Shown one piece after another: positions 12,885 through 45,249 of a DNA stretch of 64,000 bases. Within the stretch, counting starts at the first letter, position 1, and every line of letters starts with the position of its first letter. A model generated the notes under the pieces. That model did no database searches, was not told the origin of the DNA, and saw nothing but the letters and a program-made list of their open reading frames with translations. Location: the NCBI RefSeq assembly GCF_040954645.1, contig NC_092809.1:78446935-78510934 (forward strand), given 5' to 3'. The translations under genes were made by a program, and so were the position numbers. Origin of the DNA: Diabrotica undecimpunctata. Taxonomy: Eukaryota > Arthropoda > Insecta > Coleoptera > Chrysomelidae.

Positions 12885-12892
12885 AAGAAGCT

Positions 12893-16561: not shown

Positions 16562-17203
16562 TGTAACGAGTCCGTCACTTCAATAATTCTTTATTCACTT
16601 TAAATAAAATTTTTAAATCCATATCCTCTTAATAATTTCCTTAATTCTTAAATTTTAAGTTGGTATTCAACAGAGACACCAAGCGTCTATATTTGCAATC
16701 ATAGTTTAGCTAACTCAAAACAAGTGCTGATTGCTCACTTCTGCTTCGACGTTCGGTAGAGACACTTGGGTTTAGAGGTAGGGGCCAGAGAAGGCATAAA
16801 AGGTTTTTATTTAGAATATTAAAATTTTTTTAAGAAGAAGTTGCAGGAAGTTTTGATTTGGTTTTTTTGTGTCCTGTTGGTTTATAACCACTCTGAGCCG
16901 GTAAGTTTATCCAATTATCAATAAAATGAAAATATAAAAACCATCAGCCATTTTTGAGATCCTCCAGTATTGTCATTTTTCATTTGATTCGATATATTTA
17001 TCTGAAATGTTTCCCATCATTTCATTAAGAAAATTCAACATGTAAATCGAAGGTGTTATTGATATAAAATCATATGGATTTTAATTTTACTTCCCGGCCC
17101 TAAAAAACATAATTATCTATATTTAAAACAATTTATTATCTATTAAGAGTATCGATAAAAATATTTTGTCGTATACCGTTCATTATAATATAAAATATTG
17201 AAA
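16562..17203 (+). repeat. Right LTR of Gypsy-1, truncated
   Basis: Matches the first roughly 640 bp of the left LTR with only scattered differences, then stops at the LTR of Gypsy-2b. The remaining 1.3 kb of the LTR is not found beyond the far edge of Gypsy-2b, so the junction involved a deletion or rearrangement as well as an insertion. Confidence 0.85.
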
Positions 17204-17594
17204 TGTTATTTATTTATGTCTATTTAATTTATAATGTCTTTATCAAAAGGTCCTTATTTTAATTTATTGAAAAGCACGATAATTTATATCAACAATTTAT
17301 TTGATTAATAATTACATAATTTATGTATCCGAACGGTACAAGTAAATTCGCGACCGCGAGTCTTCAGACTTAACTGGCCCTCCATATAAAAATGTTGTAT
17401 TTATATACGAAATTCTGATATACTGGAACATTCGAGAGTAGCGTTGTCTTGCATCGAAAGATCGAGAAGCTTAGCCGGGCTCATTCACCATAATTTTGGT
17501 TCTAGACCTCCACCGAAACTTCTACAACAAAACAGAATTAGTGAATAAAAACATGTTTACAGGTTAAAACTATGACTCATATTTTTACGTAACA
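17204..17594 (-). repeat. LTR of Gypsy-2b
   Basis: Starts TGTTATTT and ends CGTAACA on the plus strand, homologous to the two LTRs of Gypsy-2a. The purine-rich tract on the minus strand (plus-strand TTGCCCCCCTCTC, 17595-17607) adjoins it. Confidence 0.85.
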
Positions 17595-18605
17595 TTGCCC
17601 CCCTCTCAAAAGATGGTTCCTCCTGGAACCTTGTCGGGACTAGAACTGGAACGGTATGCTGGTATCGGCAACTGGACCCTCTTTTACAACTTCCAGTTGT
17701 ATAAAAATGACAAGGGACGGTTTTCTCTCCGCACCAGTAACTATGCGGATTGCAACAGACTAACACCTGGACTTCGGTGTCTTTAAAGATCTCCTCCACC
17801 ATATTTCGGATAACCCTCCAATCTAATTGGCGGCACTCCAACTTTGGCATGGCTAACTTTTGCACGTCGGACTCTAGTACGTGCCCTCTCAATTGAAGTA
17901 AGGCTTCCCATACATCTCGGTAGGTACGTTGGTCACGGGCAGTGTCTTTTGTTACCAGGTAGAAAAGGTAACGTGATGCATCTTGGAGTTTCAAGGTTTT
18001 ACCGGGAGCTGGCACTTGGCATTGAAGTTCTGCAACTCGACCAAACTTCCTTCGAAAGACGATGCCAACCCTGGTGCGTCTTTGATACTGGCCGGGATGG
18101 TAAGGGCCAGCGAGTGGTCATCGGGGAGCGCGAGTAGATCTTGCTTTTCTTCAGTGGTAACACCATGTCTTGCTTTACCGGTACCTCCATAGGCACCCAT
18201 GAATTCCTCAAACGTGAGGTCAGACACATCGTGGACTTGGTTTACTTCCACTTCTTCATCTACGTCGTGGTCACCTTCGAAAGACGCCAACCGGTTATGG
18301 TGTACTATCATCGGCTTTCCCCTCGGAATCTTGCTTATTCGGTAGATGACATCGTTGATCTTCTCCATGATGAGGTATGGACCTTCCCAAAACTGCTGCA
18401 ATTTGGGAGAACAACCTTTTCGCTTCTTGGGATTATACAGCCATACTTTGTCGTTCTTCTTAAAGCAACCCTTTTCGGCTTGTGTATCGTACTGTTTCTT
18501 CATTCAGCCGCTAGCGATCTGAAGGTGGGAACGGACCAACTCATGTACATCGTCCATTCTTCTTCGTAATTCGATCACATAATCTTCACCTGCTACATCT
18601 TCTCC
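17557..18605 (-). pseudogene. Gypsy-2b pol tail with macro-like domain and CCCH zinc finger
   Basis: After the integrase a tail shows the GPYLIMEKINDVIYRI block, then a region (about 18128-17752) whose order of motifs resembles OARD1/TARG1-type macro domains: ALPDDHSLALTIPAS, DAPGLASSF, RYLFYLVTK, TYRDVWEALLQLRGH, MPKLECRQLDW and MVEEIF. TARG1-type enzymes remove ADP-ribose from acidic residues. The loop that holds the family's GCGLD motif is shortened to ECRQLDW, so catalysis is doubtful. A CCCH finger follows: C-HFYTTGS-C-KRGSS-C-RYQ-H (CX7CX5CX3H, about 17712-17653). The frame runs through the polypurine tract and stops inside the LTR at 17557. One frameshift lies near 18000. Confidence 0.72.
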
Positions 18606-18608
18606 AGG

Positions 18609-19219
18609 TCAACACCCAAACTCTAGATCACAAGGTAGTCGCATTTCGCGTCCGAATAGGACTCTGGCTGGTATCTGGCCTGTTGATTCGTTAACAGCAG
18701 ATCTGTAGGCCATTGTGAAGAACGGAAGGTATTGGTCCCAGTCTCGCTGATGATCGGACACCATCTTTGTCAAATACTTGCCAACTGTCCTATTCATTCG
18801 TTCTACCATACCATCCGATTGCGGATGATACGCGGTAGTTCTTGTTTTCTTCATGCCTAGTCTATCACATATCCCTTGGAATAGATCACTTTCGAAGTTC
18901 CTGCCTTGGTCACTATGGATCTCCAAAGGCACTCCAAATCGGCTGATATATTCTTGGATCAACTTATCTTCAACGGTGGCGGCCTTCTGGTCTGGAAGTG
19001 CGTAAATCTCGACCCACTTAGTAAAGTAATCCATTACTACCAGCATGTACTTGCCTCCATTTTCACTTTCTGGAAATGGCCCAGCGATGTCCAAAGCTAT
19101 TCTTTCAAACGGGCTTCCAACATTATATTGTCTCATAGGAGCTCTCCTTTTTCGGTGAGGCCCGTTACTCGTAGCACAAATAGTACATTTCTTACACCAG
19201 TCTTTTACGTCGTCGGTTG
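18609..19219 (-). pseudogene. Integrase of Gypsy-2b (N-terminus missing)
   Basis: The frame encodes the zinc-binding end (DVKDWCKKCTICATS) and a full catalytic core: LDIAGPFP, HSDQGRNFES and DGMVERMNRT hold the DDE residues, followed by FFTMAYRS and FGREMRLPCDL. It ends at an in-frame TGA (18609-18611), which is at the same place in Gypsy-2a (23280-23282). The N-terminal part is replaced by unrelated LINE sequence from about 19220. Confidence 0.9.
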
Positions 19220-19600
19220 TGCTCTCTTGTCTGTTGTTTTGTTCTAGGATTTCTTGTACTTGTTTTTTCAAAGCCTGCTATTTCTTGTGTTTCTTGGAAG
19301 TTGGAAGTTTGCCTTTTTTCCTCTACTGTAGTTCTGCATTCTTCGTCATACCATTCCGTATTTCTTTGCCTTTTGACTTTTCCGACAGAGTCCTCTGCAG
19401 ATTCCGTTATTATTGTTTTTAATTGTTTTCATTCTTCCTCTGCAGTATCTTCATCTCTGATTCCGTTGAGTTTTATTTGCAGAGTATTTTGATATTCTTC
19501 TGTCATTGTTGGACTATTGAATTCTATTTTTTAATTTGGCTATTTTTCCTTTTTGCCACCGTCGCGATTTTTTGCCTTAATTTTGGCCCATAAGATAGTG
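19220..19600 (-). mobile_element. LINE fragment between endonuclease and RT
   Basis: On the minus strand the reading SPTMTEEYQNTLQIKLNG ... NTEWYDEECRT is similar in layout to the RKNHWFDDEC linker of the RTE-like copies. It abuts the broken edge of Gypsy-2b directly. Too short for clade assignment. Confidence 0.55.
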
Positions 19601-22414: not shown

Positions 22415-23279
22415 TATCAGCAACTGGACCCTCTTTTACAACATCCAGTTGTATAAAAATGACAAGGGACGGTTTTCTCTCCGCACCAGTAACTATGCGG
22501 ATTGCAACAGACTAACACCTGGACTTCGGTGTCTTTAAAGATCTCCTCCACCATACTTCGGATAACCCTCCAATCTAATTGGCGGCACTTTAACTTTGGC
22601 ATGTCTAACTTTTGCACGTCGGACTCTAGTAGAAAAGGTAACGTGATGTTTCTTGGAGTTTCAAGGCTTTCCCAGGAGCTGGCACTTTACATTGAAGTTC
22701 TGCAACTCGACCGAACTTCCTTCGAAAGACGGATGCCAACCCTGGTGCGTCTTCGATACTGGCCGGGATGGTAAGGGCCAGCGAGTAGTCATCGGGGAGC
22801 GCGAGTAGATCTTGCTTTTCTTCAGTGGTAACACCATATCTTGCTTTACCGGTACCTGCATAGGGACTCATGAATTTCTCAAACGTGAGGTCAGACATAT
22901 CTTGGACTTGGCTTACTTCCACTTCTTCATCTACGTCGTGGTCACCTTCGAAAGACGCCAGCCGGTTATGGTGTACTATCATCAGCTTTTCCCTCGGAAT
23001 CTTGCTTATTCGGTAGATGACATCGTTGATCTTCTCCATGATGAGGTATGGACCTTCCCAAAACTGCTGCAATTTGGGAGAACAACCTTTTCGCTTCTTG
23101 GGATTATACAGCCATACTTTGTCGTTCTTCTTAAAGCAACCCTTTTCGGCTTGTGTATCGTACTGTTTCTTCGTTCGGTCGCTAGCGATCTGAAGGTGGG
23201 AACGGACCAACTCATGTACATCGTCCATTCTTCTTCGTAATTCGATCACATAATCTTCACCTGCTACATCTTCTCCAGG
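22415..23279 (-). pseudogene. Gypsy-2a pol tail with degenerate macro-like domain and CCCH segment
   Basis: The frame from 23249 shows the integrase C-terminal block EGPYLIMEKINDVIYRI and VHHNRLASFEG, then from about 22801 the macro-like start ALPDDYSLALTIPAS and DAPGLASVFRRKFGRVAEL, close to the phosphate-loop region of OARD1-type macro domains. Relative to Gypsy-2b, 82 bp are missing between two GTA triplets after RYLFY (removing the YLVTK...HVL part), which shifts the frame. The remaining MPKLKCRQLDW ... MVEEIF and CHFYTTGCCKRGSSC follow at 22617-22417, with a TGA right after the third Cys of the finger. Non-functional in this copy. Confidence 0.7.
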
Positions 23280-24715
23280 TCAACACCCAAACTCTAGATC
23301 ACAAGGTAGTCGCATTTCGCGTCCGAATAGGACTCTGGCTGGTATCTGGCCTGTTGATTCGTTAACAGCAGATCTGTAGGCCATTGTGAAGAACGGAAGG
23401 TATTGGTCCCAGTCTTGCTGATGATCGGACACCATCTTTGTTAAATACTTACCAACTGTCCTATTCATTCGTTCTACCATACCATCCGATTGCAGATGAT
23501 ACGCAGTAGTTCTTGTTTTCTTCATGCCTAGTTTATCACATATTCCTTGGAATAGATCGCTTTCGAAGTTCCTGCCTTGGTCACTATGGATCTCCAAAGG
23601 CACTCCAAATCGGCTGATATATTCTTGGATCAACTTATCTTCAACGGTGGCGGCCTTCTGGTCTGGAAGTGCGTAAATCTCGACCCACTTAGTGAAGTAA
23701 TCCATTACTGCCAACATGTACTTGCCCCCATTTTCACTTTCTGGAAATGGCCCAGCGATGTCCAAAGCTATTCTTTCAAACGTGCTTCCAACATTATATT
23801 GTCTCATGGGAGCTCTCCTTTTTCGGTAAGGCCCGTTACTCGTAGCACAAATAGTACATTTCTTACACCAGTCTTTTACGTCATCGGAACTGTTCATCCA
23901 ATAAAACCGTTCCCGAATTCGCTGAAGGGTTTTCTTTACACCAAAATGCCCTCCTGATGGACTGTCGTGTAACTGACGAAGTACTTCGGCTATTCTGCTC
24001 TTTGGGATTACCAACTGTCTTCTCTTCTCTGAACCGTCATCATTTTCCAGGACTCGTTTGAGCAAGCCATCTTCCATGATAAATGAGTCCCACTGATCCC
24101 AATACGTCTTAACTACTGAGCATAGGTTTGATATTTCTTGCCAAGGTGGTCGACGCTTTTCCTCTTTCCATTTTCGAATTTTCTGTATAACTGGATCTCT
24201 TTCTTGTTCTTCTCTGATCTTAGTAGGCGTCCAGTCGTTGTTGACCATCGTTGTTCTTAGCACTGCTGCTTCCTTGGATTCCGTTTTGTTGCAGTGGGAA
24301 CACACTACTGGGCATGGCCTTCTGGAAAGAGAATCAGCGTTTCTGTGGTTAACTCCGGCCCAGTGCTTAATCTTGAAATCGTATTCTTGGAGTCGTTCGA
24401 TCCATCTGGCTATCTGATCCTCTGGATTCTTAAACTGCGTCAACCACTTAAGGGCGGCATGGACGGTTCGGATTAAAAACTTCCTTTCATAGAGGTATTG
24501 ATAGAAGTGCTCTACTGATTTTACTACTGCCAGAAGTTCTCTTCTCGTGACGCAATAATTCCTTTCAGGTTTTGAAAGAACTTTACTAAAATATCCGAGG
24601 ACTCGTTCCTGTCCTTGAATCTGAGACAGCACTCCTCCAATTCCCACATTACTTGCATCTGTATCTAAGATGAACTCTCCTTCTGGCAGTGGATACCCTA
24701 AAATTGGTGCAATGA
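23280..24715 (-). pseudogene. RNase H and integrase of Gypsy-2a
   Basis: Starts in RNase H (DTDASNVGIGGVLSQI, VTRRELLAVVKSVEHF, HRNADSLSRRPC) and continues without break into the integrase zinc-binding domain (HDSPSGGHFG ... CKKCTICA) and DDE core (LDIAGPFP, HSDQGRNFES, DGMVERMNRT). The frame of 1.37 kb is open from 24647 to 23280, ending at the TGA also present in Gypsy-2b. A frameshift near 24720 separates it from the RT. Confidence 0.92.
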
Positions 24716-26160
24716 TTAAATGCTTTTTAAGGTCTCAAAAGCATTTTGGCAGTCTGTATCCCAGCGGTAGTCTCTTGCTTCCTCTGTAAGTCGCGTTAAT
24801 GGCTTAGCGATATCTGCAAACTTCTTAATAAACCTCCGGTAGTAAGTACATAGTCCAAGAAAACTTCTCACTTGATGTTTGTCAGTTGGTTTTGGCCATT
24901 CCTTAATGGAATCAATTTTTCCCTTATCCACGGCCACTCCTTCTTTACTGACTATATGACCCAGATAATTGACTTTACCTTGAAATAGCTGGCTTTTCTT
25001 GGGGTTTAACATCAATTGGGTAGCTTGAAGTCGATTAAAAACGTTTTCTAAATTCTTCAAATGTCTCCCCCAAGACGATTATGTCATCTAGATAAACCAG
25101 GCATGTTTTCCAAGATAACCCCCTCAACACATTTTCCATAAGCCTCTCAAATGTCGCAGGAGCATTACAGAGTCCAAATGGCATAACGTTGAATTTCCAC
25201 AATCCAGATCCTGTGGTGAAGGCTGTCTTCTCTTTATCTACTGGGTCCATTTCTACCTGCTAGTATCCAGACTTCAAATCCAAAGTAGAAAACAATTTAC
25301 TTCCAGCCAATGTGTCCAATGTATCGTCGATCCGAGGCAGAGGATAACTATCTTTCTTGGTAACGTTGTTCAGCAAACGGTAATTCACACAGAACCTCGT
25401 CGTTCCGTCTTTCTTTTTAACCAGGACCACCGGAGAGACCCATGGGCTCGTAGAAGGTTCTATCACCCCGTCTTTCTTCATTTCCTGAACAATTGTTTCA
25501 GCTTCCTCTCTTTTCGCCTGTGGTAATCGTCGAGCTGTTTGACGAATTGGCTTAGCATTACCAGTATTAATTTTATGCTTAACAACGGTAGTTCTTCCCG
25601 TCTTTCCTCCTTTCGGTACGAAAATATCACGATACTGCCGAAGAAATTCCCTTAATTTCCTTTTCTCAATCTGATTCAGAGACTGTCCAGCAACTGCAAC
25701 CATTTGGTCGAATTTGTCGTTGGAATTATCAGATGTTGTCGTCTGACGGATTATGGATATCACAGGTACACAAGTTCCTACTTTTGTCTCTTTCTTGATG
25801 GTTACTGGGTAGTCATTGACATTGATAAGTCTCACAGGAATTTCTTTAGCCGCAGTCATCAATTCCTTTCCAATTATGATTGCACGGCCAACCTCATCTA
25901 CGTGGTTCCAAGGCTCCATCCTAACAGGTGCCCCTTCGTCCACAATTCCCTGTAGCCGCGCTACTATGATCGTTTCGCTTCTCGCAGGCACGACTGTATC
26001 TTCTTTAATGGCTGCTTGCACAGTGTTGTCATTATGTGGATGGAGATGCCAACTTTGATTACCTTATTCTTAAAATCCAATTGGAATCCATGCATATTCA
26101 TTACGTCCATTCCTAATATAACATCCTCTTCGATGTCAGCAACTATAACGGTATGGACAA
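24716..26160 (-). pseudogene. Protease end and reverse transcriptase of Gypsy-2a
   Basis: From 26160 the protease tail VADIEEDVILGMDVMN is readable. The RT follows with [37 protein letters not shown] and STLDLKSGY, then a TAG at 25257-25259, then MPFGLCNAPATFERLME and the catalytic box YLDDIIVLG near 25080. A frameshift near 25045 leads to the connection block KVNYLGHIVSKEG and FLGLCTYYRRF. All standard Ty3/gypsy RT blocks are present but split over three frames. Confidence 0.9.
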
Positions 26161-26175
26161 ACTTTTCTGCTCCAA

Positions 26176-26314
26176 ATCGGTAAGATAGTTTCGAAACAAA
26201 TTCAGATTTCTGCTTTAATCTGAACCTTCTATAAATGCAAGGTATAACAGACGTTGATAAAGATGTTAATAGAGATATGGGGAATCTAAAATTTGCATTC
26301 CACGACATGTCTAT
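26176..26314 (-). repeat. Inverted partial copy of the 397-bp hammerhead unit
   Basis: Reverse complement of the start of the direct units, from CATGTCGTGGAATGC to CTTACCGAT. It lacks the ribozyme part. It faces the first direct unit across a short spacer containing another CATGTCGTGGAATGCAT copy. Confidence 0.9.
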
Positions 26315-26597
26315 CAACTAAGCAGATTTCTGGTCTGCATGTCGTGGAATGCATGAAAGAGCATGATTTCTGCTCTTTCTAAGCATGTCGTGGAATGCAA
26401 ATTTTAGATTCCCCATGTCTCTATTAACATCTTTATCAACGTCTGTTATACCTTGCATTTATAGAAGGTTCAGATTAAAGCAGAAATCTGAATTTGTTTA
26501 GAAACTATCTTACCGATTTTTTTATCAGATGTCGCTATTGCGTCCATAACGAACCCATTTTATTGTTGCTTCTTAAAAGACAGAAAAGATTATTTTT

Positions 26598-26685
26598 CAC
26601 GTTGAGAACGGCTATGAATAACTGTTCTGATGAGACTTATTAAGTCGAAATACGTATCAACAGATACATAGACGCTTTGAACGTG
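26598..26685 (+). ncRNA. Type I hammerhead ribozyme, copy 1
   Basis: Core elements are in order: CTGATGA (26627-26633), stem II GACTT-ATT-AAGTC (26634-26646), GAAA (26647-26650), a minimal stem III from the self-complementary ATACGTAT, and the cleavage site after the C of ATC at 26658. Stem I pairs CTGTT (26622-26626) with AACAG (26659-26663), CTATG with CATAG, and the outer CACGTT (26598-26603) with AACGTG (26680-26685), with internal loops between. All conserved core positions are met. The short stem III suggests cleavage in dimeric form. Confidence 0.88.
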
Positions 26686-26994
26686 AAATCAAATCTTTTC
26701 TGTCTTTTTCATTTTATTCGGATCTAGTCTGTATGACTACAAGAAACAAATTCGTTAAGGATTTCTGCTTATTTGATAGACATGTCGTGGAATGCAAATT
26801 TTAGATTCCCCATGTCTCTATTAACATCTTTATCAACGTCTGTTATACCTTGCATTTATAGAAGGTTCAGATTAAAGCAGAAATCTGAATTTGTTTCGAA
26901 ACTATCTTACCGATTTTTCTATCAGATGTCGCTATTGCGTCCATAACGAAGCCATTTTATTTTTGCTTCTTAAAAGACAGAAGAGATTATTTTT

Positions 26995-27082
26995 CACGTT
27001 GAGAACGGCTATGAATAACTGTTCTGATGAGACTTATTAAGTCGAAATACGTATCAACAGATACATAGACGCTTTGTACGTG
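26995..27082 (+). ncRNA. Type I hammerhead ribozyme, copy 2
   Basis: Identical core to copy 1: CTGATGA at 27024-27030, stem II GACTT-ATT-AAGTC, GAAA at 27044-27047, cleavage predicted after 27055. Stem I inner helices CTGTT/AACAG and CTATG/CATAG are perfect; the outer helix has one change (CACGTT against TACGTG). Cleavage at both copies would release a 397-nt unit. Confidence 0.88.
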
Positions 27083-27121
27083 AAATAAAATCTTTGCTGT
27101 CTTTTTCATTTTCTGCTCCAA

Positions 27122-28633
27122 TTCCCAATTGTACCTGGATTTCTCCATGAATGTTGGCATTTTCACCTGTGGCGGTCCGAAGTCGCAACCTCGTTGGTAA
27201 CAGTTTCTTACGGCTGTTTATAACTGTCGGGCGTATAATGGTTCTGGTCGCTCCGGTATCCACCAACAAAGTTTGCTTTTTACCATTTATTTCTCCATCT
27301 ACATATACACTGTCTTCACGACATTTCAAAGAAGCTATTAGTATAAAAGGGTGTTTGGAAGAGTTCCGGGTCAAAGCTGCCCCCCTAAGGCTGACTCGTT
27401 CTGGTTTTCCTGATGGTGAGTTTCTTGATTTTATGGTCTTCTGTTTCTTGCATGTAATACTTTTCATCATATTAACGAGCCTGTCAAGTTTGTCTTCATC
27501 TCCTTCCTCTTTTACAGTCCTAACTTTACTGTAACCGCCAGAGGCCTGCGTAGCTGACTCGTATTCGAGGGCGGCGGATAAGACATCAACCAGCGTCTTG
27601 TGACGAGCTAATCGTAGTGTTCTCTGCATTTCATGATCACGAAGACCATCAATAAACGTTTGAACAGCCAACTTTTCCATCATGTCTTCGGGAGCTGTTG
27701 GATAAGCATATCGTACTAATCTGGCAATATCTACCTCATATTCTTGAAGAGTCTCATCTTTCTTTTGTCTTCGATTTTTAAGCTGCGATTGATATGCATG
27801 CTCCAAATGTTCGCGGCCATATCGCATATTTAACCTCTTCTTCAGTTGTTCGAAATCATCCGTCTCTTCTACGGCTATGGTCTGAAGCACATCTAAGGCA
27901 TCTCCTCGAAGAGCGATAGTCAGGTTTACAGCCTTTTCTTTTTCAGACCATCCATTCGCTCTTGCAGCTGATTCGAACTGTTTCCTGTAGTTGTTCCATG
28001 ACGATTTTCCGTCGAAAGTTGGGACTTTGACATGCACAGAACTTCCACTTCCTTCAAATTTCGGCCGTGTCTCCAACTTACATTTTGTTTCGTCTTCTTT
28101 TGTCTCTGCTGCAATTGGATTGTTTCCTCTCTCTGCTGTCCCTGTTTCCTCCAGCTTCCTTTCCATTTCTTTCATCCTTTCTTCGAAGGCCAACTTATCG
28201 GCAGCAACTTGGTTTTTTAACGAAGATATTCTATCGTCCAGGGCAGACATCTCAGAAGTAACTTTAGAGATTTCCGAAGAGATGTTAGCGGAAACTTTGC
28301 TTTCCAGAGAAGAAATCTCGTTAGAAACTTTGTTTTCTAAAGAAGCGATGTCGCCGGAAACTTTCGAAATATCGCCAGAAACTTTGTTCTCTAATGATGC
28401 GATGTCACCAGAAACTTTTGAAATCGACGAGAGGACAGCATCATGTCGTTTGATGCTGTTTGATGCTTTGTCACGTTCGCTTCAAATATATACGTTTCTG
28501 GATTAAACCTATCTTCCTCCAAAGCGTTCTTTAGTCGTTGGACTAACTCAGCCTTTTTTCCGGTAAAAGCTTATTCACTGTCCTCGAGATGTCTTCTTAA
28601 ATTCGTCACTGTGAGCTCATAAATCGTCGTCAT
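27122..28633 (-). pseudogene. gag and start of protease of Gypsy-2a, with N-terminal SAP-like motif
   Basis: The minus-strand ATG at 28633 begins MTTIYELTVTNLRRHLEDS, then a TAG-type break, then GKKAELVQRLKNALEED: this pattern (LxxxLxxRxLxxxGKKxELVxRL) matches a SAP motif, a DNA-binding helix pair. It is followed by repeated KVSGDISKVSGDIASLENKV segments with heptad spacing, likely a coiled coil, and a capsid-like region with FDGKSSWNNYRKQFE and YEVDIARLVRYAYP (ORF from 28250). A zinc knuckle is not visible; it may be deleted. The aspartic protease signature LLVDTGATRTIIRP follows near 27270. The frame then runs into the hammerhead-bearing insertion at 27108. Confidence 0.82.
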
Positions 28634-28659
28634 TTTCACAATTTTACTTCTAACACCAC

Positions 28660-29059
28660 TGTAATGTCTTTATTAATTTATAATTTATTATATTGTTCTT
28701 ATTTTAATTTATTAAAAAGCACGATAATTTATATCAATTTCTTTACAACAATTTATTTGACTAATAATTACATAATTTATGTAGATGAACGTGACAATTA
28801 AATCGCGACCGCGAATCTTCAAAATTAACTGTCCTGTTCTTTAAAAACTTTCGTATTTATATAAAAAGCACCGTTGACTAGAATCTCGTCGAAGGATGTC
28901 GACCTGATACTTGGCGAAAAAACCTAGAAGGTCACGCCATACTGGTTTTCCCGTCGACCCGTCGATCTTCTTACTAGAAAATACTCGAATGAATAAGCAT
29001 ATTGTAATAAACATGTTTACCGTTCTGAGTCATACGACACGTCACCATCTATCGTAACA
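28660..29059 (-). repeat. 5' LTR of Gypsy-2a
   Basis: 400 bp, starts TGTAATG and ends CGTAACA; homologous to the 3' LTR along its length apart from small indels and substitutions. The differences suggest the insertion is not very recent. Confidence 0.92.
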
Positions 29060-29063
29060 ATAC

Positions 29064-29423
29064 TCTAACCACAGAGGAATTACGCTTCTAAATGCCGCGT
29101 ATAAAATATTTTCCATAGTACTATGTCACCGTATGGCACCAGATGCAGAACGGATAGTAGGAAAATACCAAGCTGGTTTCAGAGGTGGTAAATCGACAAT
29201 TCATCAGATTGCAACCCTGAAATAAATATTAGAAAAAAACACTGCAATATGGCATGGATACTCATCACATATTTATAAACTACAAAGCAGCCTACGACTC
29301 TGTAAATAGAAGAGAAATGTTCAAAGCAATGAAAGAGCTAGGAATACCAAAACAGTTGGTAAATTTAACAAAACTAACTCTTGAAAAAGAATGTAGAGTA
29401 CGAATTCAGGGGGAACATTTATT
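29064..29423 (+). pseudogene. Middle RT segment of RTE copy B
   Basis: Continues the RT after Gypsy-2a: NHRGITLLNAA-like, GFRGGKSTIHQIATL, then IFINYKAAYDSVNRREMF and KAMKELGIPKQLVNLTKLTLEKECRVRIQG. Stops and a frame change are present. It shows the uninterrupted sites of the solo LTR in copy A. The segment ends at AGGGGGAAC where the jockey-like element begins. Confidence 0.82.
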
Positions 29424-31100
29424 TTTTATCGTATGGCACTTGACCCATTTACATTTAAATTTACATATATTTTGTAGAAAACATTACATATATGTTTAGG
29501 AACGAAGTTCTAACTTACTTATATATTCTATCGACTCTGGAGTCGCCATTAGAAAATCCTCTGACCTGCCTTGATAGGATCTTGTGGGACACTGTTCTGT
29601 AATGTGACAGATGGTTTGGGGTTGTCCGCAGTCACAGAGTGGGGATGGTCGTGTACCCCATTTGTGCATCATGTAACCGCTATTTTGTTGTTCCATTCAT
29701 TATCGAGTCCAAGTGGTCGTTAAGTTGAACTCATTTTCCACAGCAATCTGTGCTGTTTTTATTGGTGGTCGTTTGGAGCGTAAACGGTTACCGTTTTCAG
29801 CATCTATATCTTTATGAATTGGCAGAATCTCGTTACTAAGTATCTTTTTGTACTCACTAGTGAGGAAGTGTATGAGCCGAGTTTGAGTGGTGGAATGTGG
29901 CTCAGTACTGGAAGCCATTGCGTAGGGGTGGATTTGATAACACCAGCAATCATTCTTATTGTATTGTTCAATTGGGCATCTACTTTGTGTATATGTGGGC
30001 TGTTAAGCCAGGCTGAAGAGCAGTATTCTGCTGTTGAGAAGACAAGGCCCAGGGCAGATGATCGTAAGGTGGAAGCCGATGCTCCCCATGTTGTGCCGCA
30101 CAGCTTCTGGATGATGTTGTTTCTGGATGTAAGTTTTTTCGCTGTTTTTGACAGATGTTCCTTGAAAGATAGGGTTCTGTCAAGAGTCACCCCAAGGTAC
30201 TTTGGTGTTTTATTGTAGACGAGTGTGGTGTTTTCGAATTGGATGCTCAGTATTCTTCCTGCAAGCTTGTTATTTAGATGAAAACTGGAAACCTCTGTTT
30301 TGATAGCGTTTGTTTGGAGCCTCCATTTACGGAAATACTTTCCCACTGTGTGTAAGTCTGCCGTAAGGATTTCTTCTGTTTGTTCAAATGACTTACACCT
30401 TGTTGCAAGGAACCAGTCGGCATAACCAAATTTCCTTGATCTGGTTTCTGGTATAACAGCGATGTACAGGCTAAAGAGAAGAGGAGCTAGGACAGATCCC
30501 CGAGGCAGTCCATTCTTCAGTTTTCTTGGAGTGCTGACGTCGGTTCCCATGACTACTTGAATCGTTCGGTCGGCTAGCATGCTGTTGATTATTCGAGCGG
30601 TGGATTTACAGGAGATTGTACGGAGGAGCTTGTATATCATGCCTTCTCTCCAGACTGTATCGTATGCCGCTGTTACATCTATAAATGCGGCTGCAGTTTT
30701 AAGTTTTTTCTGGAACCCTGCCTCAATAAATGTGGTAAGTGAAAGAACCTGATCTCTGCAGCTTCTTTTCGGTCGGAAACTTGCCTGATCAACCGGTATT
30801 GATTCAAGTAGCTTTGGACTAATTCTGTTATAGATAAGTCGTTCTAGTAGCTTGAACGTTGCCGATAGTAGGGCTATTGGTCTGTAGTTCCTAGGGTTGT
30901 TATCATTTGATTTTCCTGGTTTTAATATGGCAATGTGCTATAGTGACTTTTTCGCAAGTGAAAGGGCGAGAGTATTCGGTTTCTGCAGATTGAAATTTTA
31001 AAGTTTTGAGCTCTCGTTTTACCTTGATTGTGTGGGGCTTGTCTTTCGGGGCTCTAGATGTCGATACCAGATGTGAGGCAATAGTGTTTGGATTAAAGGG
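29424..31100 (-). mobile_element. Jockey-like non-LTR element fragment
   Basis: The minus strand encodes, from about 31100 down, SPNTIASHLVSTSRAPKDKP-like sequence, the RT entry (KPGKSNDNNPRNYRP, RPKRSCRDQVLSL, AAFIDVTAAYDTVW) and an 837-bp frame (30640-29804) with GLPRGSVLAPLLFSLYIA, KFGYADWFLATRC, KTPKYLGVTLDRTLSF and YCSSAWLNSPH. The tail includes PSPLCDCGQPQTICHITEQC, a C-terminal zinc-finger-like segment. The catalytic box reads YADW, so one of the two aspartates is missing. It interrupts RTE copy B, with some target sequence lost at the junction. No TSD was found. Confidence 0.82.
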
Positions 31101-31101
31101 A

Positions 31102-31990
31102 GACCTTCTCTCCTGTATAGTGTTCAATCTGGCTCTGGAAAAAGTAATACGTATGTCACAGATCACAACCATTGTTTCAATATTTAATAAATCAATGCAA
31201 ATCCTTGCCTATGCTGATGATATCAATATTGTGGGGAGAACGGAAAACGCTGTAAGAGAAGCGTATGTAGCATTAAAAGAATCAGCTACAAAAATGGGTT
31301 TAATAATAAACACCAACAAAACGAAGTATATGAAAATTAGCACGCAACCAGAAATCCTACGACGACTTGTTATATAAAACGACGTCATCGAAGCAGTGAA
31401 CGAATTTGTATATCTGGGAGCGCTTAACACTGAAAATAATACTACCGCAGAAGTTACACGGCTCACAGGTGCTATTTTGAACTTAATCTTCTCCTTAAAT
31501 CTACAATTATATCGAGAAATACAAAAATAAAACTACAAACAATAATACGCCCAGTCTTTACATACGGTTCAGACCCCTGGACTCAAAAAAAATGTAATGA
31601 AAACATGTTAGGATGTTTCGAAAGAAAAGTAAGGAGAATCTATGGAGCAGTGATTGACAATGAAGTGTGGAGAAGATGATACAACTTCGAACTTTATAGA
31701 AAATGCCAGGAACCAGGTATCATAAAACATATTAAGATAGGACGTCTGAGGTGGATAGGACATGTAATGCGGATGGAACAAAATGACCCAGCTAGAAAAA
31801 CGTTTCTTAATATACCCATTGGTAAGAGAAGAAGAGAAAGAACCAGCACAATTTTCCTTGATAATATCGATGAAGAGATGAAAAATATGGGAATACGTGG
31901 TTGGTGGAGGAAGGTGATGGATAGAGACGACTGAGGAGAAATTCTTTCGGGGGCTAGGACCCACGAAGGCTTGTAAAGCCAGAATGATGA
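31102..31990 (+). pseudogene. RT end and 3' tail of RTE copy B
   Basis: Contains FNLALEKVIRMSQITT, QILAYADDINIVGRTENAV and the C-terminal GRLRWIGHVMRMEQ-like stretch near 31740, ending with the CCAGAATGATGATGATG tail that also ends copy A. The frames are broken after 31377. Confidence 0.85.
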
Positions 31991-32193
31991 TGATGTGGTT
32001 CTCAGATTGCAGTTTTCATAAAATGTGTAGATGTCATTTTTAAAGCGAGAAATTTAAAGAAAATAACACACAATGAAATATAGTAATGACCTGAATTCAC
32101 CTGTTGTCAAAGGTAGTGCGCAATCAACTAGTTTTTGATATCGGCTCTAGGTGAATCTGGCATACACAAATGTTTGACCCAACTTACCCAACA

Positions 32194-32196
<3 letters not shown>

Positions 32197-32260
<64 letters not shown>
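32197..32260. repeat. (TA)n microsatellite
   Basis: About 60 bp of TA dinucleotides following AATAAATA. A simple repeat with no other signal. Confidence 0.97.
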
Positions 32261-32262
<2 letters not shown>

Positions 32263-32650
32263 AGCGTTTTATATTTGGTGGAATATTTTCGTTTTTCTGT
32301 TTGCAAATGAATTTTAAAACGCAATAAACTGGAATGTTTAAAAGTTGTTTCGAGTCCCCTAATATAATATTGCAAGTCAGGTATACGGTTTTTCTAAGAC
32401 GTATTAACAGAATATTTTTTTGTCTTTGTTTACATTAATATTCCCCTATTCTCTGTATGTATTGTGAGGTAAAAAATTTCCAGTTAACCAATTTAAAAGT
32501 AAATACTCAAGAAGTTTTTTGTCGGTTCGTTGCTAAGAACGAGGTCAAAAAAGGGTAGATTGTTTGTTTTAAGTTTGTAGGCAAAAACTAGCTGTGAGAC
32601 GTAAAGGGAAATTTATTTTGCGTTGAAATTTGTAAAATGTAAGGCATCGA

Positions 32651-33020
32651 GGAGTCGACATTTAAGCTCCAAGCAGAGCAGACGTGCTACGGTTTTCTTC
32701 TTTGTGTTATGTTTTAAGACCGGTTAAGGTGATAATACTCTCTGCAATATGGCAGTTTAGAAAAGAGTAATCACCATAAGATTTGTGAACCGGCGGTGAA
32801 AAAATTTTGTTAAAATGTTTATATAGGAAGGAGTCGACATTTAAGCCCCAAGCAAAGCAGACAGAAGAGATTTTGAATCGCGAGTCGATTCAATTTTTTT
32901 GTGTAATATCTTAAGACCGGTTAAGGTGATGATACTCTATGCAATGTGGCAGTTTAGATCAGAGTAATCACCCATAAGATCTGTGCAGTACACCGGCACT
33001 GATGAAATTTGGAAAATGTT
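32651..33020. repeat. Direct duplication with period about 179 bp
   Basis: GGAGTCGACATTTAAGC-type starts occur at 32651 and 32830, followed in both units by AAGACCGGTTAAGGTGAT, GCAATATGGCAGTTTAGA-like and GAGTAATCACC-like blocks. The units differ by substitutions and small indels. No coding capacity was seen. Possibly part of an unidentified transposon or satellite. Confidence 0.85.
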
Positions 33021-34002
33021 TATATAGAATGTCCCCGTCGACAGCTTGATTTCCTCCATCAAGTTTCTATTCCAATCGTTCCTGCCTACGTATGGAAATG
33101 GTTTATTTTTATTCAAGTTGAGAGTTATGTCCTTTGCAGCTCCAGTCCCATAGATGTTAACAAGTTTTTTTTGAAAGTTAAGTGCTAAACTGTGAATCCA
33201 GGTAACAATTAACATTTTAATTTTTAAAGTAAAGACAGACAATTTTTTTGATAATTATTAATAATTGGTTTCATTAAAATTTAAAGGATTTGTAATAAAC
33301 AATAAATTGTAAATTTTATGGTTTAACAGCTGTCATTTTAATTGTTTTTTTAATATATTGTTATCATATGACAGCTAGCTTTGTTCTTTTTAATATTCAT
33401 TTGTTTTGTTTGTTTAAAAAAAGGTTAATCTCTGTGCGATAACATTTGTAAGTTTTGTAGTATCTCCAACCCCTTTGTAAACGAAGTTTGTAAACAGACA
33501 CATATAAGTTTTTTATTCTGTATTTGGCAACTATTTATATAGTATATTTTTTGTGCCATTTTTATGTTTGATAACTGTTTGTATGAGACAAAAATAAACG
33601 TTTGATTTGTTTCTCTGATCCTTTGTTTCTTTTAGTTTAGAAAATCTCCTAACCCTTGTATGTATTTTTGATTTTAGGGAAGAAGAAATTTTCTTTCTTT
33701 TTCCAGCAGGAAGTTTTCTTCGAAGCGGCGTCCAAATTTAAATAGCTAGAGGTAACCTTGTCTGCCATATCTTATTTCATTTTGTCCAGGAGATTTATGT
33801 AAGTACCCTTTCATTTTTTTTTGTAGCTGCCCCAATCCGACCCATTTATTTCACTTATCCACGACCCCAGCTCTCCAACAACCAACTGAGTGTCGTACGC
33901 ACTAGTAGCGTTTATTTTGCTTGCCCTATCTTCGCCCCATAGTTTTTGTCCCCTATTTCTACCCCTATGTTCGTACCCTGAGGTAGGCAAAATATTTTCG
34001 TT
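33021..34002. other. Intron sequence without recognised gene
   Basis: AT-rich intron between the duplicated repeat and the TA tract. No conserved coding segment was recognised. Confidence 0.4.
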
Positions 34003-34003
34003 T

Positions 34004-34082
<79 letters not shown>
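34003..34082. repeat. (TA)n microsatellite
   Basis: About 75 bp of uninterrupted TA dinucleotides just upstream of the exon at 34167. It produces meaningless Ile-Tyr open frames on both strands. Confidence 0.97.
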
Positions 34083-34084
<2 letters not shown>

Positions 34085-34166
34085 GCAAAGAATGCAATAA
34101 AGTAAAAATCCTATTATTTTCATACATTAGAAGTTTTTGAACGAAATAATTCGCTGTTGTTTTCAG

Positions 34167-34578
34167 GTTTTCGTTGTAATGTCGTACTTCATCGTTCTCT
34201 CAATCGCTATGTTATTAATGTTCACTAGAGGAGTATCTGAAATAGCTGAAGGTTTGGTCGCCATTCGAAGAATCAAAGGTTTTCTTCTAAGCGAAGAATA
34301 CGATCTTAATAAAACAAATATGCATATGAATGGTATTGTGAAAAGTGTAGACGATTTTAACGATATTGTAAGTTTGAAAAATTTGACTGTAAAATGGAAT
34401 GTAAGCTTCAGCGACAATGCTCTTGAGAATGTAAATTTAAATATTCCTGCTGGACAGTTGGTTGGAATTATTGGACCTGTTGGTAGTGGGAAGAGTTCTT
34501 TATTGCAAACATTACTAAACTCTATCCAACGAGAAGAGATAGTGCGCCAAAACAACAAGGCGTTGCCAAATTTGCCAG
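34167..34578 (+). CDS. ABCC exon: last TMD1 helix and NBD1 Walker A
   Basis: Starts after TGTTTTCAG in phase with the previous exon (VFVVMSYFIVLSIAML) and contains LVAIRRIKGFLLSEE, the NBD1 start SLKNLTVKWNVSF and Walker A GPVGSGKSS (34473-34499). The expected junction is LLQ-x-x-L-GELDITHG, but no donor occurs there. The only phase-1 donor seen is CAG|GTCCGG at 34578, which would insert about 20 extra residues (NSIQREEIVRQNNKALPNLP). The 3' boundary is therefore uncertain. Confidence 0.8.
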
Positions 34579-34739
34579 GTCCGGATTTAACGTTTGCTAA
34601 TACATACTTTTTTAAACATATTTTTTTGGTAAATTGGAAATCCAAAATTAATAATATGTTGTACTTATCTGGATTCATCTTGTTGGTTTTATGCAAAAGA
34701 AATTTTTCCATTTTAAAAATAAATAGCAATTTGTAACAC

Positions 34740-36400
34740 GCTCCTATTTACAATGAAATAAAACACCGCCACTGTTAACACTGCCATAATCAGTTACTGT
34801 TTGATTTTGTTTGAACCAACAAATACTGTCGTCAGCAAATTCTTGCGTGTATAAACTCGCTATAAGTTCAGTTGATAAAATAGCTTTCGTGGTAATAATT
34901 GTACATTTCGGCGCGTTTAATCGAACTTAGCGGGTGTTTATTTATGCTTTCTATTGTTTGCTTTTATATTTATTTTTTTACACTGTTTACAGTTTGCTGT
35001 CTAATTTTCAGTTTTACAAACAATGTCGAGTTCTACAGATTCTGCCGAGGAATTAACTCCAAAAAAGCGTTCAAAATTACGTGCATTTAGTAGTACGGAA
35101 AAAAGCGTTATATATAATATTTATAAATCGACAACGGAATCGCGTCCTGAAGCTTTAATATCGGAAATAGTTAAACAAACTGCTTCTACCAGCGGAGTAG
35201 GTGAAGCTTCTGTGTACAGAATTATTAGGGAACAGAAAAGTACAGGAGGATTTTCTTCACCGAAAAAGAACAAACCCAGAAAAACCATACTTCACAAAAT
35301 AGACGATTTTGATAAAACTGCTATTCGTCGAATTGTACATCAATTTTTTTTTCGCAACGAAATACCAACTATAGACAAAGTTCTTGCAGCTGTTAACGAC
35401 GACGAAAGCTTGCCAAATTTTAAACGCAGTACTTTCCATAAATTTCTAAAATCATTAGATTTTAAATACGTACGTAGGGGTAGAAACAGTGCTTTATTAG
35501 AACGAGAAGAGATTATTTTATGGAGGCGAAATTTTTTAAAATCCATTAAAAAATTTCGGGAGGAAAACAGGAAAATTTATTATTTAGATGAAACGTGGGT
35601 AAATGCAGGACATACAAAATCTCATGTGTGGGTTGACGAAACGGTGAAATCTTCCAGGCAGGCGTTTTTGTCAGGTCTCTCAGCAAGTCTCAAAAATCCA
35701 TCTGGCAAAGGAAAAAGAGTGATTCTTACACATATTGGGAGTGAAACAGGTTTTGTAGAAGGTGGCCTATGGACGTTTGAATCAAAAAAGAGTGGCGACT
35801 ATCACGAGGAAATGAACTCAGACGGTTTTGAAAAGAGGTTTGCAAATATTTTGCCCCTTTTAGAAGACAACTGTGTCATAGTTCTCGATAATGCTCCTTA
35901 CCATTCGCGAAAAAGTGAGAAAGTACCGACTACAGCATGGATAAAGCAAAAAATAAAAGACTGGTTACGATCAAAAAATATCGACTTCGATGAGGACATG
36001 CTTAAAGTTGAACTCTTACAATTAGTGGCACCGCGTAAGGCTGAATATAACAAATATATTATCGATGAACTCGCAAAAGCTCAAAATAAAACCGTTTTAC
36101 GTTTGCCACCCTACCATTGCGAGCTCAATCCTATTGAGCTGATTTGGTCTGATGCTAAAAATTTTGTTGCTGCCAACAACAAGACTTTCAAATTTGCAGA
36201 TGTTAAAATCCTTTTAAATGATGCCCTTAACAACATTACCCAGGAGAAATGGAAAAACTGTGTGAAGCATGTGCAGAATACAGTAGAAAAAAAGTTCTGG
36301 GAACTTGATCATATTATTGAGGTCATGGTTGAACCGTTAATTATAGAAATTGGTAGTAATCGTGATAGTGATAGTTCAAGTTTTTCCTAATTGTTTTTAA
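34740..36400 (+). mobile_element. IS630/Tc1/mariner-superfamily DNA transposon (boundaries approximate)
   Basis: An intact transposase gene lies in the intron between ABCC exons at 34167 and 39474. Terminal inverted repeats and a TA duplication were looked for by eye in both flanks and not found, so the limits given are only those of the gene plus nearby sequence. Confidence 0.5.
35023..36390 (+). CDS. Intact DDE transposase, IS630/Tc1/mariner superfamily
   Basis: A 455-codon ORF begins MSSSTDSAEELTPKKRSK and has an N-terminal helix-turn-helix-like region (residues about 20-75) with basic SPKKNKPRKT linker, then a DDE_3-like catalytic core: YYLDETWVN (D189), VIVLDNAPYHS (D289) and CELNPIELIWSDAK (E372). 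Transposases of this fold cut and paste DNA. The second and third acidic residues are separated by 82 residues, far more than the 34-41 usual in Tc1/mariner families. The extra segment holds Trp-rich WIKQKIKDWL and a helix ending in LPPYH. No frame damage is seen, so it may be recently active. A diverged relative lies at 63535-64000. Confidence 0.9.
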   Translation: MSSSTDSAEELTPKKRSKLRAFSSTEKSVIYNIYKSTTESRPEALISEIVKQTASTSGVGEASVYRIIREQKSTGGFSSPKKNKPRKTILHKIDDFDKTAIRRIVHQFFFRNEIPTIDKVLAAVNDDESLPNFKRSTFHKFLKSLDFKYVRRGRNSALLEREEIILWRRNFLKSIKKFREENRKIYYLDETWVNAGHTKSHVWVDETVKSSRQAFLSGLSASLKNPSGKGKRVILTHIGSETGFVEGGLWTFESKKSGDYHEEMNSDGFEKRFANILPLLEDNCVIVLDNAPYHSRKSEKVPTTAWIKQKIKDWLRSKNIDFDEDMLKVELLQLVAPRKAEYNKYIIDELAKAQNKTVLRLPPYHCELNPIELIWSDAKNFVAANNKTFKFADVKILLNDALNNITQEKWKNCVKHVQNTVEKKFWELDHIIEVMVEPLIIEIGSNRDSDSSSFS

Positions 36401-37559
36401 CGACAACAAGGTAAGCCATCTTAGTAGCCACGTTTTTTTTCCCAAGTTAGCTATAAAACGGAAGGCGAACGATTTTTTTGGCATGTAAGCCTCGTTTGTT
36501 TGTATTTATTTTCATAATTATCCCACTAATCTCAATTATTATTTGTAAATCTTTTTTATAAGAATAATGCATAACATACATTTTCCTCAAGTTTGATTTA
36601 TTATAATTTTACCAGACTGATTAACGGAAATAGAAATAAGTGCACAAAATATAAAGGGTTTGAAAAAAAAACTTATTTTAAATGTCATTCCATATGCATT
36701 GCAAAATGTATGTGCTCATTTTTCATAATTGTCAACAAATGGATTTAAAATCTATGTAGCACAATAAAATATAACAAATTGGCAACAGCGCAATAACAAA
36801 TATCGTCTAACTGTGGCTAGGGATGCATCTTTATCGTTCGACTTCTCTTCAAATACTAATTTAATGGAAGTTACAGCAGTACAGCTGTGTACAGTGTTGT
36901 CAGTTGATTTAGTATTAGTATTTAATTTAAAAATACAAACAAAAAATTGTATAATGAATATCTATTCCCAAGTTTATGACATATGGGATGAGAAAAACAT
37001 TTATTGCCGTATTTGTATGTGCATTGAATCAAAAATGTTCTATTATTTAAAAATATATATTCATAAATATCACTTAATTTTCGTAATACAGATCTGAAAT
37101 AGGCGGAGAGAGATCTAAACGCCAGCCAATTAAAACGTTTATAACCCTACACGCGTATATTTCGTTGTTTACTGGCACTATCGCTTCTCGGTGGATAGAG
37201 TTTAGGTACGTATTCAATGATTTAGAAAGAATTAGATGCAAGCAATACAATTTTCTAGAAGAATATTTCTCATAGAAAATTTGAGCATTTCAAGATTCAT
37301 AATAAAATAGAAAGTTTTTATGTTTGATAAATCTATAGCATAATCATTTTTAAGAAAAGTTATAACCTACAATCAAAGAAATGCTAATGTATAAGGTACA
37401 ATTAACTTTGGGAGTCAATCTGTAGCATACAACCAACGATTTCGCCGATTATAGCCATCTCAGAGGTTCTCAGAGATAAATTCGATCTTCACCAGAAGAC
37501 ATCTTGCTCAAATTACAGGAGCAATAAGTAAATATGTTATTTATAGTAGTTCGAGGGAA
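36391..37559. other. Intron sequence, nothing recognised
   Basis: AT-rich sequence downstream of the transposase gene. No coding similarity recognised; transposon ends could lie here but were not identified. Confidence 0.4.
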
Positions 37560-37890
37560 ACCATTGCATCTATCTGACGTTACTATCGATCTGCCTATTT
37601 TTTGTTTGTTTATGGGCCTTCCACGTTAGTTTGGGTCCAATATTAGTCCTAGATCCTTCTCCTCAGTCCTAATCCCTTTTAGGAATACAGTGATGGTAGT
37701 TGAGGATTGCTGTTTACTGCAAAATACCATTGTCGAAGTGTCTGCCGTGAATATCAGGCATAAGAATGGGTCAAGCACCTTACCTTGTGGTACACCAGAT
37801 TTTATTGGATGATGTTTGGATGTTTTAAGGTTAAACTTAGTTTGGAAAAAGCGACAAATGAGGTATGATTTGAATACTAGTAAGTAATAA
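37560..37890 (-). mobile_element. Degenerate non-LTR RT fragment
   Basis: The minus strand reads SGVPQGKVLDPFLCLIF ... TADTSTMVFC ... KGIRTEEKDLGLILDPN, which follows the RT block around GVPQGSVLGP and the KYLG-like thumb start of LINEs. The YADD box is unrecognisable. Frames are broken. Confidence 0.6.
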
Positions 37891-38299
37891 TAATAATATC
37901 GTGTGGCATTTTTGCCGAGAAGATCGTTTTAGATTGTTCCGGCGCCAGTTGCATCTTTAATCCTGTTTCAGGTTATTGTGCAGACTAGACTAGGGGACTA
38001 ATGGTTTTACGTGCTCTTCGAAGCACGGGGACGGCTTATTTTCATTTTTGCAAATGAATATGCCGTTGTTGGTACCGAGAATAGAACTCATGCGCTTAGC
38101 TTAGACGAACAGTGTCTTGGTCGCTTAGCTACGGTTGCCCCACTATGAGTAATTGGTTGAGACAGAGTTTTTTATAAAGTAGTCTATGATGCCATACACG
38201 AATGCTTTCTGTACGTCCAAAAATGTTGCATTGCGTACTATGTTTTGATATAGACTCTATTATTTAGTTTATGGTTCTATAGGAGGCTGTTATATAGTA

Positions 38300-38540
38300 G
38301 AATTCTCTAACAACACGTAACGAATGAATCAGTTCTAAATAACATAAACAGAGAACTAGAATTATTATCAAGGATTAAGAAAAAAAGACCTCGTATTCAC
38401 ATAATGAGAAATGACAAAACTAAGACTAATAATTGAAGGAAAGATATATGACGGCAGAGGCCATAAGAGCAATGTTCAAAGAATTAATAAGAGTGGCGCA
38501 GAATAGGGATGATTTTAATGTAGTGATCGATCGAAGAAAA
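38300..38540 (+). mobile_element. LINE 3'-end fragment
   Basis: Plus-strand frames give LLSRIKKKRPRIHIMRNDK and a following basic segment similar to the KKRKxxYxGHIMR...IIEGKI tail of LINE ORF2 ends seen elsewhere in the window (for example 52700). Short and degenerate. Confidence 0.5.
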
Positions 38541-39473
38541 AGCAAATAATATTAAAATACGCATAAGATGGTTTAAAATAAGGCGAAAAATCAAAGAACT
38601 GCAAATTCAAACACTAATTTCCCTGGTAACTGGAAGTTGAGATAATTCTTAGATTTTACTGAAAATAAAATGAGTATGGAAAGCTTAAATATCATTGAGC
38701 AAAATGTTTAACGTCAAAAGGCATGGAAAAGTGAGAGGTTATATGAGTCTAAAAAGAGTCTATGAAAGAAATAAATATTACCGTTACAAGACAGCAGGTA
38801 CAAAAAGTTTATACAATTATGATATTGTAACTTGAATATCTAAAATACATGTTAAGTCTAAATATTTTACTCAAAATAGAGATACTTAAATAATGCGTAG
38901 GCAGTTGAGTTATGGTTTCACAAGCTATTTAAGAGAATGTAGTGAGCAATTTTGAATGTAACACGTGTCAAGACTTACAGATAAGTGAGACTTTCTACTA
39001 AAGTTAGTGACACATCATCTACAATTATACATAATACATATACAACATACAATATATAAACATTTAATACACAAATACATAATACATAAACCTACAAAAC
39101 AATCACAATTTGATATCATCCTGAGGGTACAAACACCACCCGAGATGTTTCAACACTAAAATGGTATTTGCCTACAAGATCGGGATCAAGTAAGTCACTC
39201 GTCAATTTGCAAACATAACCGCCAGACAACTATTGGTTATAGTTATAACAAGTCACCAATTTAAAATATAAAATAATCTATTTTGAAACGGATTTCTTGA
39301 ACGGAAATAGAAACGTCAAATAAGGTCAATTACAATCAATGGTGGCTTACTCTCATTTAAATGGAATATTTAACTTAATCTTTCACTTTTCATATGCGTG
39401 TTACACAATTTCAGAACCTGCAGTCTAAATAAATGTTATGTAAGTGTAAGTCTAATTTTACAATATGTTTCAG
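38541..39473. other. Intron before NBD1 second exon
   Basis: AT-rich sequence without recognised features, ending in the acceptor ATATGTTTCAG. Confidence 0.45.
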
Positions 39474-39680: not shown

Positions 39681-39753
39681 GTGAGAAAATGGATCAACAA
39701 CTAACACATATTTTTGAAAACGTTTCCTTAACGAAAAGTACATCTGTTTTTAG

Positions 39754-42227: not shown

Positions 42228-42309
42228 GTAAGTATATTACATAATCAAATTTAGCACATTTATTCTTTAAGTTAAATGTTTTATATTTTTATTTGTATTT
42301 TATACTAAT

Positions 42310-45245: not shown

Positions 45246-45249
45246 AATC

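Follow-up and report, generated by a model that had tools for sequence, protein, structure and literature searches.

Two hammerhead ribozyme motifs lying in tandem in the genome of the beetle Diabrotica undecimpunctata raise the question of what kind of element carries them and by which route it entered the DNA. The window considered here is the whole analysed stretch of 64,000 nucleotides (contig NC_092809.1, positions 78,446,935 to 78,510,934). On its plus strand there are two type I hammerhead cores, with CTGATGA at 26627 and 27024 (spacing 397 bp), each having a 5-bp stem II (GACTT/AAGTC) with an ATT loop and then GAAA; the ATC cleavage sites end at 26658 and 27055. The core CTGANGA...GAAA...TH was found together with stems I, II and III and open at stem I, which is the type I arrangement. 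Both strands of the window were searched with a type I descriptor including all three stems and just these two copies matched, against 4 matches in total over 100 simulated windows that kept its dinucleotide transitions. The tandem pair, its core elements and its cleavage positions had been proposed in an earlier note on this DNA, and all of these were confirmed at the same positions.

With the long stem I included, hammerhead 1 occupies 26575-26708 and hammerhead 2 occupies 26972-27105 (both plus strand, predicted cleavage after 26658 and after 27055). Stem I of hammerhead 1 extends into 45-nt arms (26575-26619 and 26664-26708) with a complementarity of 82%, so it is longer than the earlier note described; the CACGTT/AACGTG helix is perfect in copy 1, as claimed there, and has TACGTG in copy 2. 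Folding of the 141-nt hairpins against shuffles gave z values of -8.55 (copy 1) and -5.31 (copy 2). Stem III can fold as two pairs with the palindrome ACGU as cap, and forcing it costs 3.2 kcal/mol; the active junction lies above the best fold by 5.8 kcal/mol in an 81-nt piece and by 1.7 kcal/mol with the long stem I. The minimal self-complementary stem III recognized earlier is of the weak palindromic form, which would favour dimers. Since amphibian retrozymes also have a weak palindromic stem III and work better as dimers (passages of PMC7229834), the comparison suggests that these hammerheads act as dimers, and self-cleavage can be predicted at the two sites. The check by covariance models that had been advised turned out negative: in the window no Rfam family reached its gathering score, the best hammerhead model being RAGATH-1 with 21.9 bits of the 56.3 required, and two microRNA models scored about equally, likewise below threshold.

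The extent originally noted (26598-27082) is merely part of a 933-bp insertion (26176-27108) in which both hammerheads sit; the inverted arm, the target-site duplication (TSD) and the fixed ends had been missed. The TSD consists of exact 13-bp copies, TTTTCTGCTCCAA, at 26163-26175 on the left and 27109-27121 on the right; its first four bases may equally belong to the element at its right end (microhomology). Between them stand an inverted partial copy of the unit as left arm (151 nt, 26176-26326, minus strand, complementary to 26766-26916), a scrambled joint between the arms (26327-26383, with unit sequence recognisable again from about 26365) and, as delimited by repeat comparison, direct unit 1 (397 nt, 26384-26780, plus) and the incomplete direct unit 2 (26781-27108, plus), which shares 97.6% identity with unit 1 across 332 nt, the 4 nt common to the TSD among them. 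The 397-nt unit postulated before is supported as one of retrozyme type. The direct units differ at 8 of the 329 compared positions, none of them within 26600-26679, and this unchanged 80-nt core is weak evidence at 8 changes in 329 nt overall. The inverted arms 26176-26326 and 26766-26916 are about 99% complementary; judged from this arrangement, a read-through transcript would form a long double-stranded hairpin, a possible source of small RNA.

A Ty3/Gypsy element on the strand opposite to the hammerheads (22626-28481, minus), whose gag, protease, RT, RNase H and integrase frames were recognized by Pfam matches, has its protease gene split by the insertion; if the insertion and one TSD copy are removed, the protease frame is free of stops across the junction. 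The location in an insect intron assumed by the earlier note is unsupported: the element sits in this protease gene, and although an intron may enclose the whole, no partner exon was detected in the plus frames of 1-28,502. An exon-like frame of an ABCC-type transporter does lie about 7 kb from the insertion (34131-34736, plus; best matches MRP4 and MRP1) and spans the end of the first membrane domain and the start of the first nucleotide-binding domain. No partner exon for it came up when all plus frames of 1-28,502 were scanned with Pfam, and scans of the three plus frames of 28,500-41,101 and one plus frame of 41,000-55,999 returned a single ABC-transporter stretch (at about 34.4 kb) and no partner exon; short exons could escape any of these scans.

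Other mobile sequences were also observed in the window. Besides the host of the insertion, Ty3/Gypsy-type stretches are found at 9730-14147 (plus) and 17557-19277 (minus), and the frames at 17557-19277 and 22626-24734 resemble near copies of one another. The repeats 7592-7663 and 16920-16991, 9,328 bp apart and each with short unit matches, are possibly the ends of an intervening Gypsy element. A 461-aa frame (35005-36390, plus) contains a stretch with a DDE_3 transposase match, and two long minus-strand frames, 53622-56261 (879 aa) and 29804-30937 (377 aa), look by eye like LINE reverse transcriptases.

As to the kind of element, no frame of at least 80 aa was found wholly within it, hence it has no protein of its own, and an RT plus GIY-YIG frame of a Penelope-like element is absent from the insertion according to the ORF list. 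The type I hammerhead, the tandem units in the range of about 170-400 nt, the low GC (32.5% in the unit), the TSD above 4 bp and the lack of LTR and own protein agree with the metazoan non-LTR retrozymes, insect ones included, as portrayed in parts of PMC7229834. Stem III differs: it is palindromic here, as in amphibians, unlike the two-pair stem III given for invertebrate retrozymes in the same parts of that source. The plant LTR retrozyme, with a type III hammerhead in its LTRs and a 4-bp TSD, was ruled out by the type I stem order, the 13-bp TSD and the presence of inverted and direct copies together.

The motif CTGATGAN5ATTN5GAAA was searched for in the whole genome (1.74 Gb, 2,867 contigs) and occurred 6,469 times (3,163 and 3,306 on the two strands), compared with 46 (28 and 18) for the reversed pattern. 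The family was sampled in 50 stretches around the first of 100 listed motif places, all on one contig (C1), plus the window; the last six stretches of the 100-place list were left out. Eighteen of 20 tandem units measured 396-402 nt, the other two 303 and 413 nt, with identities of 77-100%. In a stem census of 50 loci, with one motif from each, the window included and the duplicate L012 excluded, stem II appeared as GACTT/AAGTC (14), GCTTT/AAAGC (11), GGCCT/AGGCC (8), TGCCT/GGGCT (4) and other forms (13), and stem I as CTGTT/AACAG (24), CCGTT/AGCGG (9), CTATT/AATAG (6), CCGTT/AACGG (5) and others (6). Stem III was the palindrome ATACGTAT in 47 of the 50, and the cleavage base was A in 32 and C in 18. 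The cells of the 48 distinct rows of the alignment were paired to 98.3% in stem I, 97.9% in stem II and 86.1% over the whole structure. None of 500 shuffles reached the covariation score of the alignment, and the number of pair types showed no excess (278 of 500 shuffles). Stems I and II covary and are kept by compensating changes. At gathering score, Rfam gave no hammerhead in 17 retrozyme loci, and a scan of viral contigs with the core and stem III yielded zero matches. One further hammerhead copy, at 3604 of L024 (minus), has insertions in stems I and III. Taken as read from the genome, the family has a unit of about 397 nt with a predicted type I hammerhead, thousands of core motifs, TSDs and two-armed insertions.

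The outer ends of these insertions follow a rule. Unit coordinates start at the C of CTGATGA (u1), with predicted cleavage after u32. Most outer ends in the first 40 loci lay close to u90 (site A) or u290 (site B), 200 nt apart, and the intervals u83-93 for A and u283-301 for B were chosen after the data had been seen. A TSD of at least 10 bp was present in 31 of 54 elements from 51 loci (length 11-14 bp), the remaining 23 giving none; an earlier scoring had found TSDs in 24 of 43 elements versus 4 of 129 mismatched pairings. One insertion is represented twice, by L011 and L012, and with L012 excluded from the later counts 30 TSD-bearing elements remained. Both outer ends could be placed in 21 of these and the outcome was A/B in all 21, with A/A and B/B both zero (probability about 5e-7 under independent even choice); A was on the left and B on the right in 16, the reverse in 5. 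The window copy obeys the rule, its left arm ending outside at B (u287) and direct unit 2 at A (u85). In the other nine TSD-bearing elements one end was placed and one match was weak, and from their sequences these appear to be single-armed insertions or ones with very short second arms.

Ten loci were fetched after the rule had been noticed, and both ends were placed in 5 elements, all 5 being A/B, although L056 obeys solely because the B interval was drawn to u301. L050 fits A/B with a weaker match, L057 has one placed end, L051 has B at one side and an unplaceable other end, and L052 and L053 have no TSD. By BLAST alone, the A and B intervals contained 44 of the 50 outer ends of 25 two-armed elements (exceptions at 16, 244, 303, 303, 309 and 313) and none of the 50 inner ends; unlike the outer ends, the inner joints are scattered over the unit. 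The orientation of neighbouring cores less than 2 kb apart in the 100 listed places was minus-minus in 16 cases, plus-plus in 11, minus-plus in 14 (two of which are the duplicate pair) and plus-minus in 0, so that inverted neighbours diverge in 14 cases and converge in 0. Thus within the 50 stretches of one contig and the window, as placed by their sequences, two-armed insertions with both ends placeable each carry two fixed outer ends, one A and one B. No poly(A) or other 3' tail was seen at the element ends. The TSDs have 84% A+T, the flanks 71%. The DNA end and the RNA past the start site shared on average 2.2 nt of microhomology (51 ends) versus 0.77 nt for shuffled TSDs, a value as high in none of 1,000 shuffles and inflated by the choice of the longest TSD.

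What served as template can be judged partly from the arms, which could be compared in 12 elements. They were identical in three (L015 over 266 nt, L037 over 826 nt and L055 over 496 nt) and differed by 1.0-5.3% in nine, for which age or two different templates have to be allowed for. In L019, L023, L048 and L058 another element was at least as similar as the own second arm, and the best matches between elements reached 93.3-100%. Over 1,809 nt the direct units of L055 show no difference, and arms continue across the cleavage junction without a break for several units. The identical arms and units of the youngest-looking copies fit a single circular template copied for several laps; the older copies may stem from one template or from two, and a homogeneous multimeric transcript may fit as well.

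When 24 units were folded as circles, all were more stable than their shuffles (z from -2.2 to -7.3, 20 shuffles each), with 56-66% of the bases paired. Stems I and II were both in the single best fold of 14 circular units, and 10 were without one or both. In the consensus fold two rods, that of the hammerhead and a second one at about u117-u271, are connected by a short helix, which in the window copy is formed by UCGG (u92-95) with CCGA (u284-287). Of 77 cells from 22 distinct units 89.6% are paired in this predicted helix and 12 are changed on both sides, in a fold that itself came from this small alignment. Site A immediately precedes the first helix strand on its 5' side and site B immediately follows the second on its 3' side, so the two starts would be half a circle apart yet neighbours in the fold, and being adjacent across the helix they could let one RNA serve both DNA ends together.

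A candidate for the inserting enzyme is provided by the Penelope-like elements, which parts of PMC7229834 name as strong candidates for retrozyme mobilisation, without direct evidence. Among 150 scored of 6,686 candidates in the genome there were 73 matches to GIY-YIG domains, and L071 and L072 have RT and GIY-YIG in one frame, the RT of L071 being slightly below the Pfam cut-off. One type of hammerhead core occurs in 5 of 14 Penelope-like (RT/GIY-YIG) loci; in L061, L063, L065 and L067 it lies on the GIY-YIG strand and downstream of that domain, in L066 on the opposite strand. Similarity between L066 and the other four ends 100-107 nt after the C, where the retrozyme A end is at 83-93, and other pairs among the five stay similar further, into AT repeats; L067 and L071 are divergent copies themselves. 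Comparison of the A-site regions with Penelope-like 3' ends was not significant (20 comparisons, the best equalled by 18 of 500 shuffles), the B-site comparisons were near shuffled means (highest 21.0 versus 14.9), and a full-unit profile search of the 14 loci found nothing. Downstream of the RT/GIY-YIG frame, L071 (4038) and L072 (3777, both plus) contain a hammerhead-like core, CTGAAGA...GAAA, with an extra base before stem II. A possible lead is a hairpin in the duplicate loci L059 (584-625) and L060 (632-673, minus), on the strand opposite GIY-YIG and beside a broken Penelope-like frame; its 20-nt loop, ATGCAAATTGTAGATTCCCC, agrees with the retrozyme's second rod except for one mismatch. 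Head-to-head arms, short TSD and presumed internal start sites agree in architecture with a Penelope-like mode of insertion, which may apply here, the sequence link being not significant; on this architectural likeness a Penelope-like enzyme is probably the inserter.

The comparison can be extended to two systems. Penelope copies of Adineta vaga (passages of PMC3846280) are likewise inverted head to head, with short TSDs (8-10 bp) and outer ends that can differ owing to an optional tail on one inverted end; they are autonomous, with an RT/GIY-YIG frame, and the tail is of about 31 bp, whereas the retrozyme ends are about 200 nt apart. For the Anolis Poseidon protein, a predicted dimer with a preference for AT-rich DNA, parts of PMC11167929 describe cutting and extension of both strands, starting at two internal sites. 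Its starts lie 85-92 nt past the hammerhead cut, site A 51-61 nt past. They are adjacent, the same on both strands and without homology to the cut DNA, and hammerhead mutants insert like wild type; indifference to the strand, the lack of homology to the cut DNA and dispensable hammerhead activity are unlike, or not required by, a model with one A and one B.

Our preferred reading, to which we give a probability of about 0.7, is that the element is a non-autonomous retrozyme of the metazoan type, inserted by two-strand target-primed reverse transcription from A and B of one, probably circular, RNA by a Penelope-like enzyme. Multimeric transcripts would be cut by hammerheads acting in pairs, since a palindromic stem III depends on a second copy, and the resulting monomers would circularise. 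A dimeric Penelope-like RT with its GIY-YIG endonuclease would then cut both strands of AT-rich DNA 11-14 bp apart, leaving 3' overhangs, of which one would prime at A and the other at B of the same RNA circle. The length copied from the circle would differ between cDNAs, from about ten nt up to several full turns, and the pair would be joined head to head. Our confidence was slightly lowered by the non-identity of most arm pairs and by the differing strand-choice data from Anolis. A more specific proposal is that both sides of a symmetric insertion are copied from a single RNA circle, with A and B opposite on it, brought close by the fold and assigned one to each DNA end of a staggered break, so that one A and one B would be obligatory in every two-armed insertion; this is tentative, and we put its chances somewhat short of even.

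The template could instead be an uncut linear multimeric transcript on which two enzymes start at A and B in different repeats. Arms crossing the cleavage junction unbroken for several units would be expected from it, and the hammerhead mutants that leave insertion by the Anolis protein unaffected (parts of PMC11167929) speak in its favour; the identical units of L055 (1,809 nt) and arms of L037 (826 nt) are most simply explained by a circle, though a homogeneous parent array would be equivalent, and we regard the linear template as unlikely. Self-priming on an antisense template was put forward in 2013 to account for Penelope copies lying head to head with palindromic joints (passages of PMC3846280): the head-to-head copies and traces of snap-back, such as the scrambled joint at 26327-26383, would suit it, but it predicts one fixed end, whereas two different fixed outer ends and scattered inner joints were observed, so we consider it very improbable.

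The fixed ends also bear on twin priming by an ordinary LINE enzyme, in which internal priming of the second strand on the same RNA leaves the 5' part inverted. LINE-type RT frames are present in the window, and twin priming of L1 does produce divergent arms inside a single TSD; there, however, the second start is variable and the 3' end has poly(A), whereas here 44 of 50 outer ends fall into two narrow intervals and no poly(A) or other 3' tail was seen, which leaves this route with very little probability. A satellite repeat spread by recombination and inverted later would account for tandem arrays of near-identical units and for the 23 of 54 elements lacking a TSD; dispersed insertions, TSDs of 11-14 bp, fixed ends and the reading frame restored when the window copy is left out make it hardly credible.

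It should be added that metazoan retrozymes and divergent Penelope arms are already known; the A/B end rule appears to be new. No account of retrozyme insertions that diverge and end at two fixed sites, one of each kind, was found in the retrozyme and Penelope literature, as far as the available parts of its texts go, those of PMC7229834, PMC11167929, PMC3846280, PMC7761336, PMC8969392 and PMC11722881 included. The end rule, with two start positions on one RNA and one for each DNA end, makes it testable by which RNA form and which enzyme animal retrozymes return to DNA, and the thousands of copies in this genome allow a large-scale check of it. It is also a genomic counterpart of the two-strand extension from internal sites by a Penelope-like protein in vitro. 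If the shared circle is true, it would mean strand-symmetric target-primed reverse transcription on a circular template.
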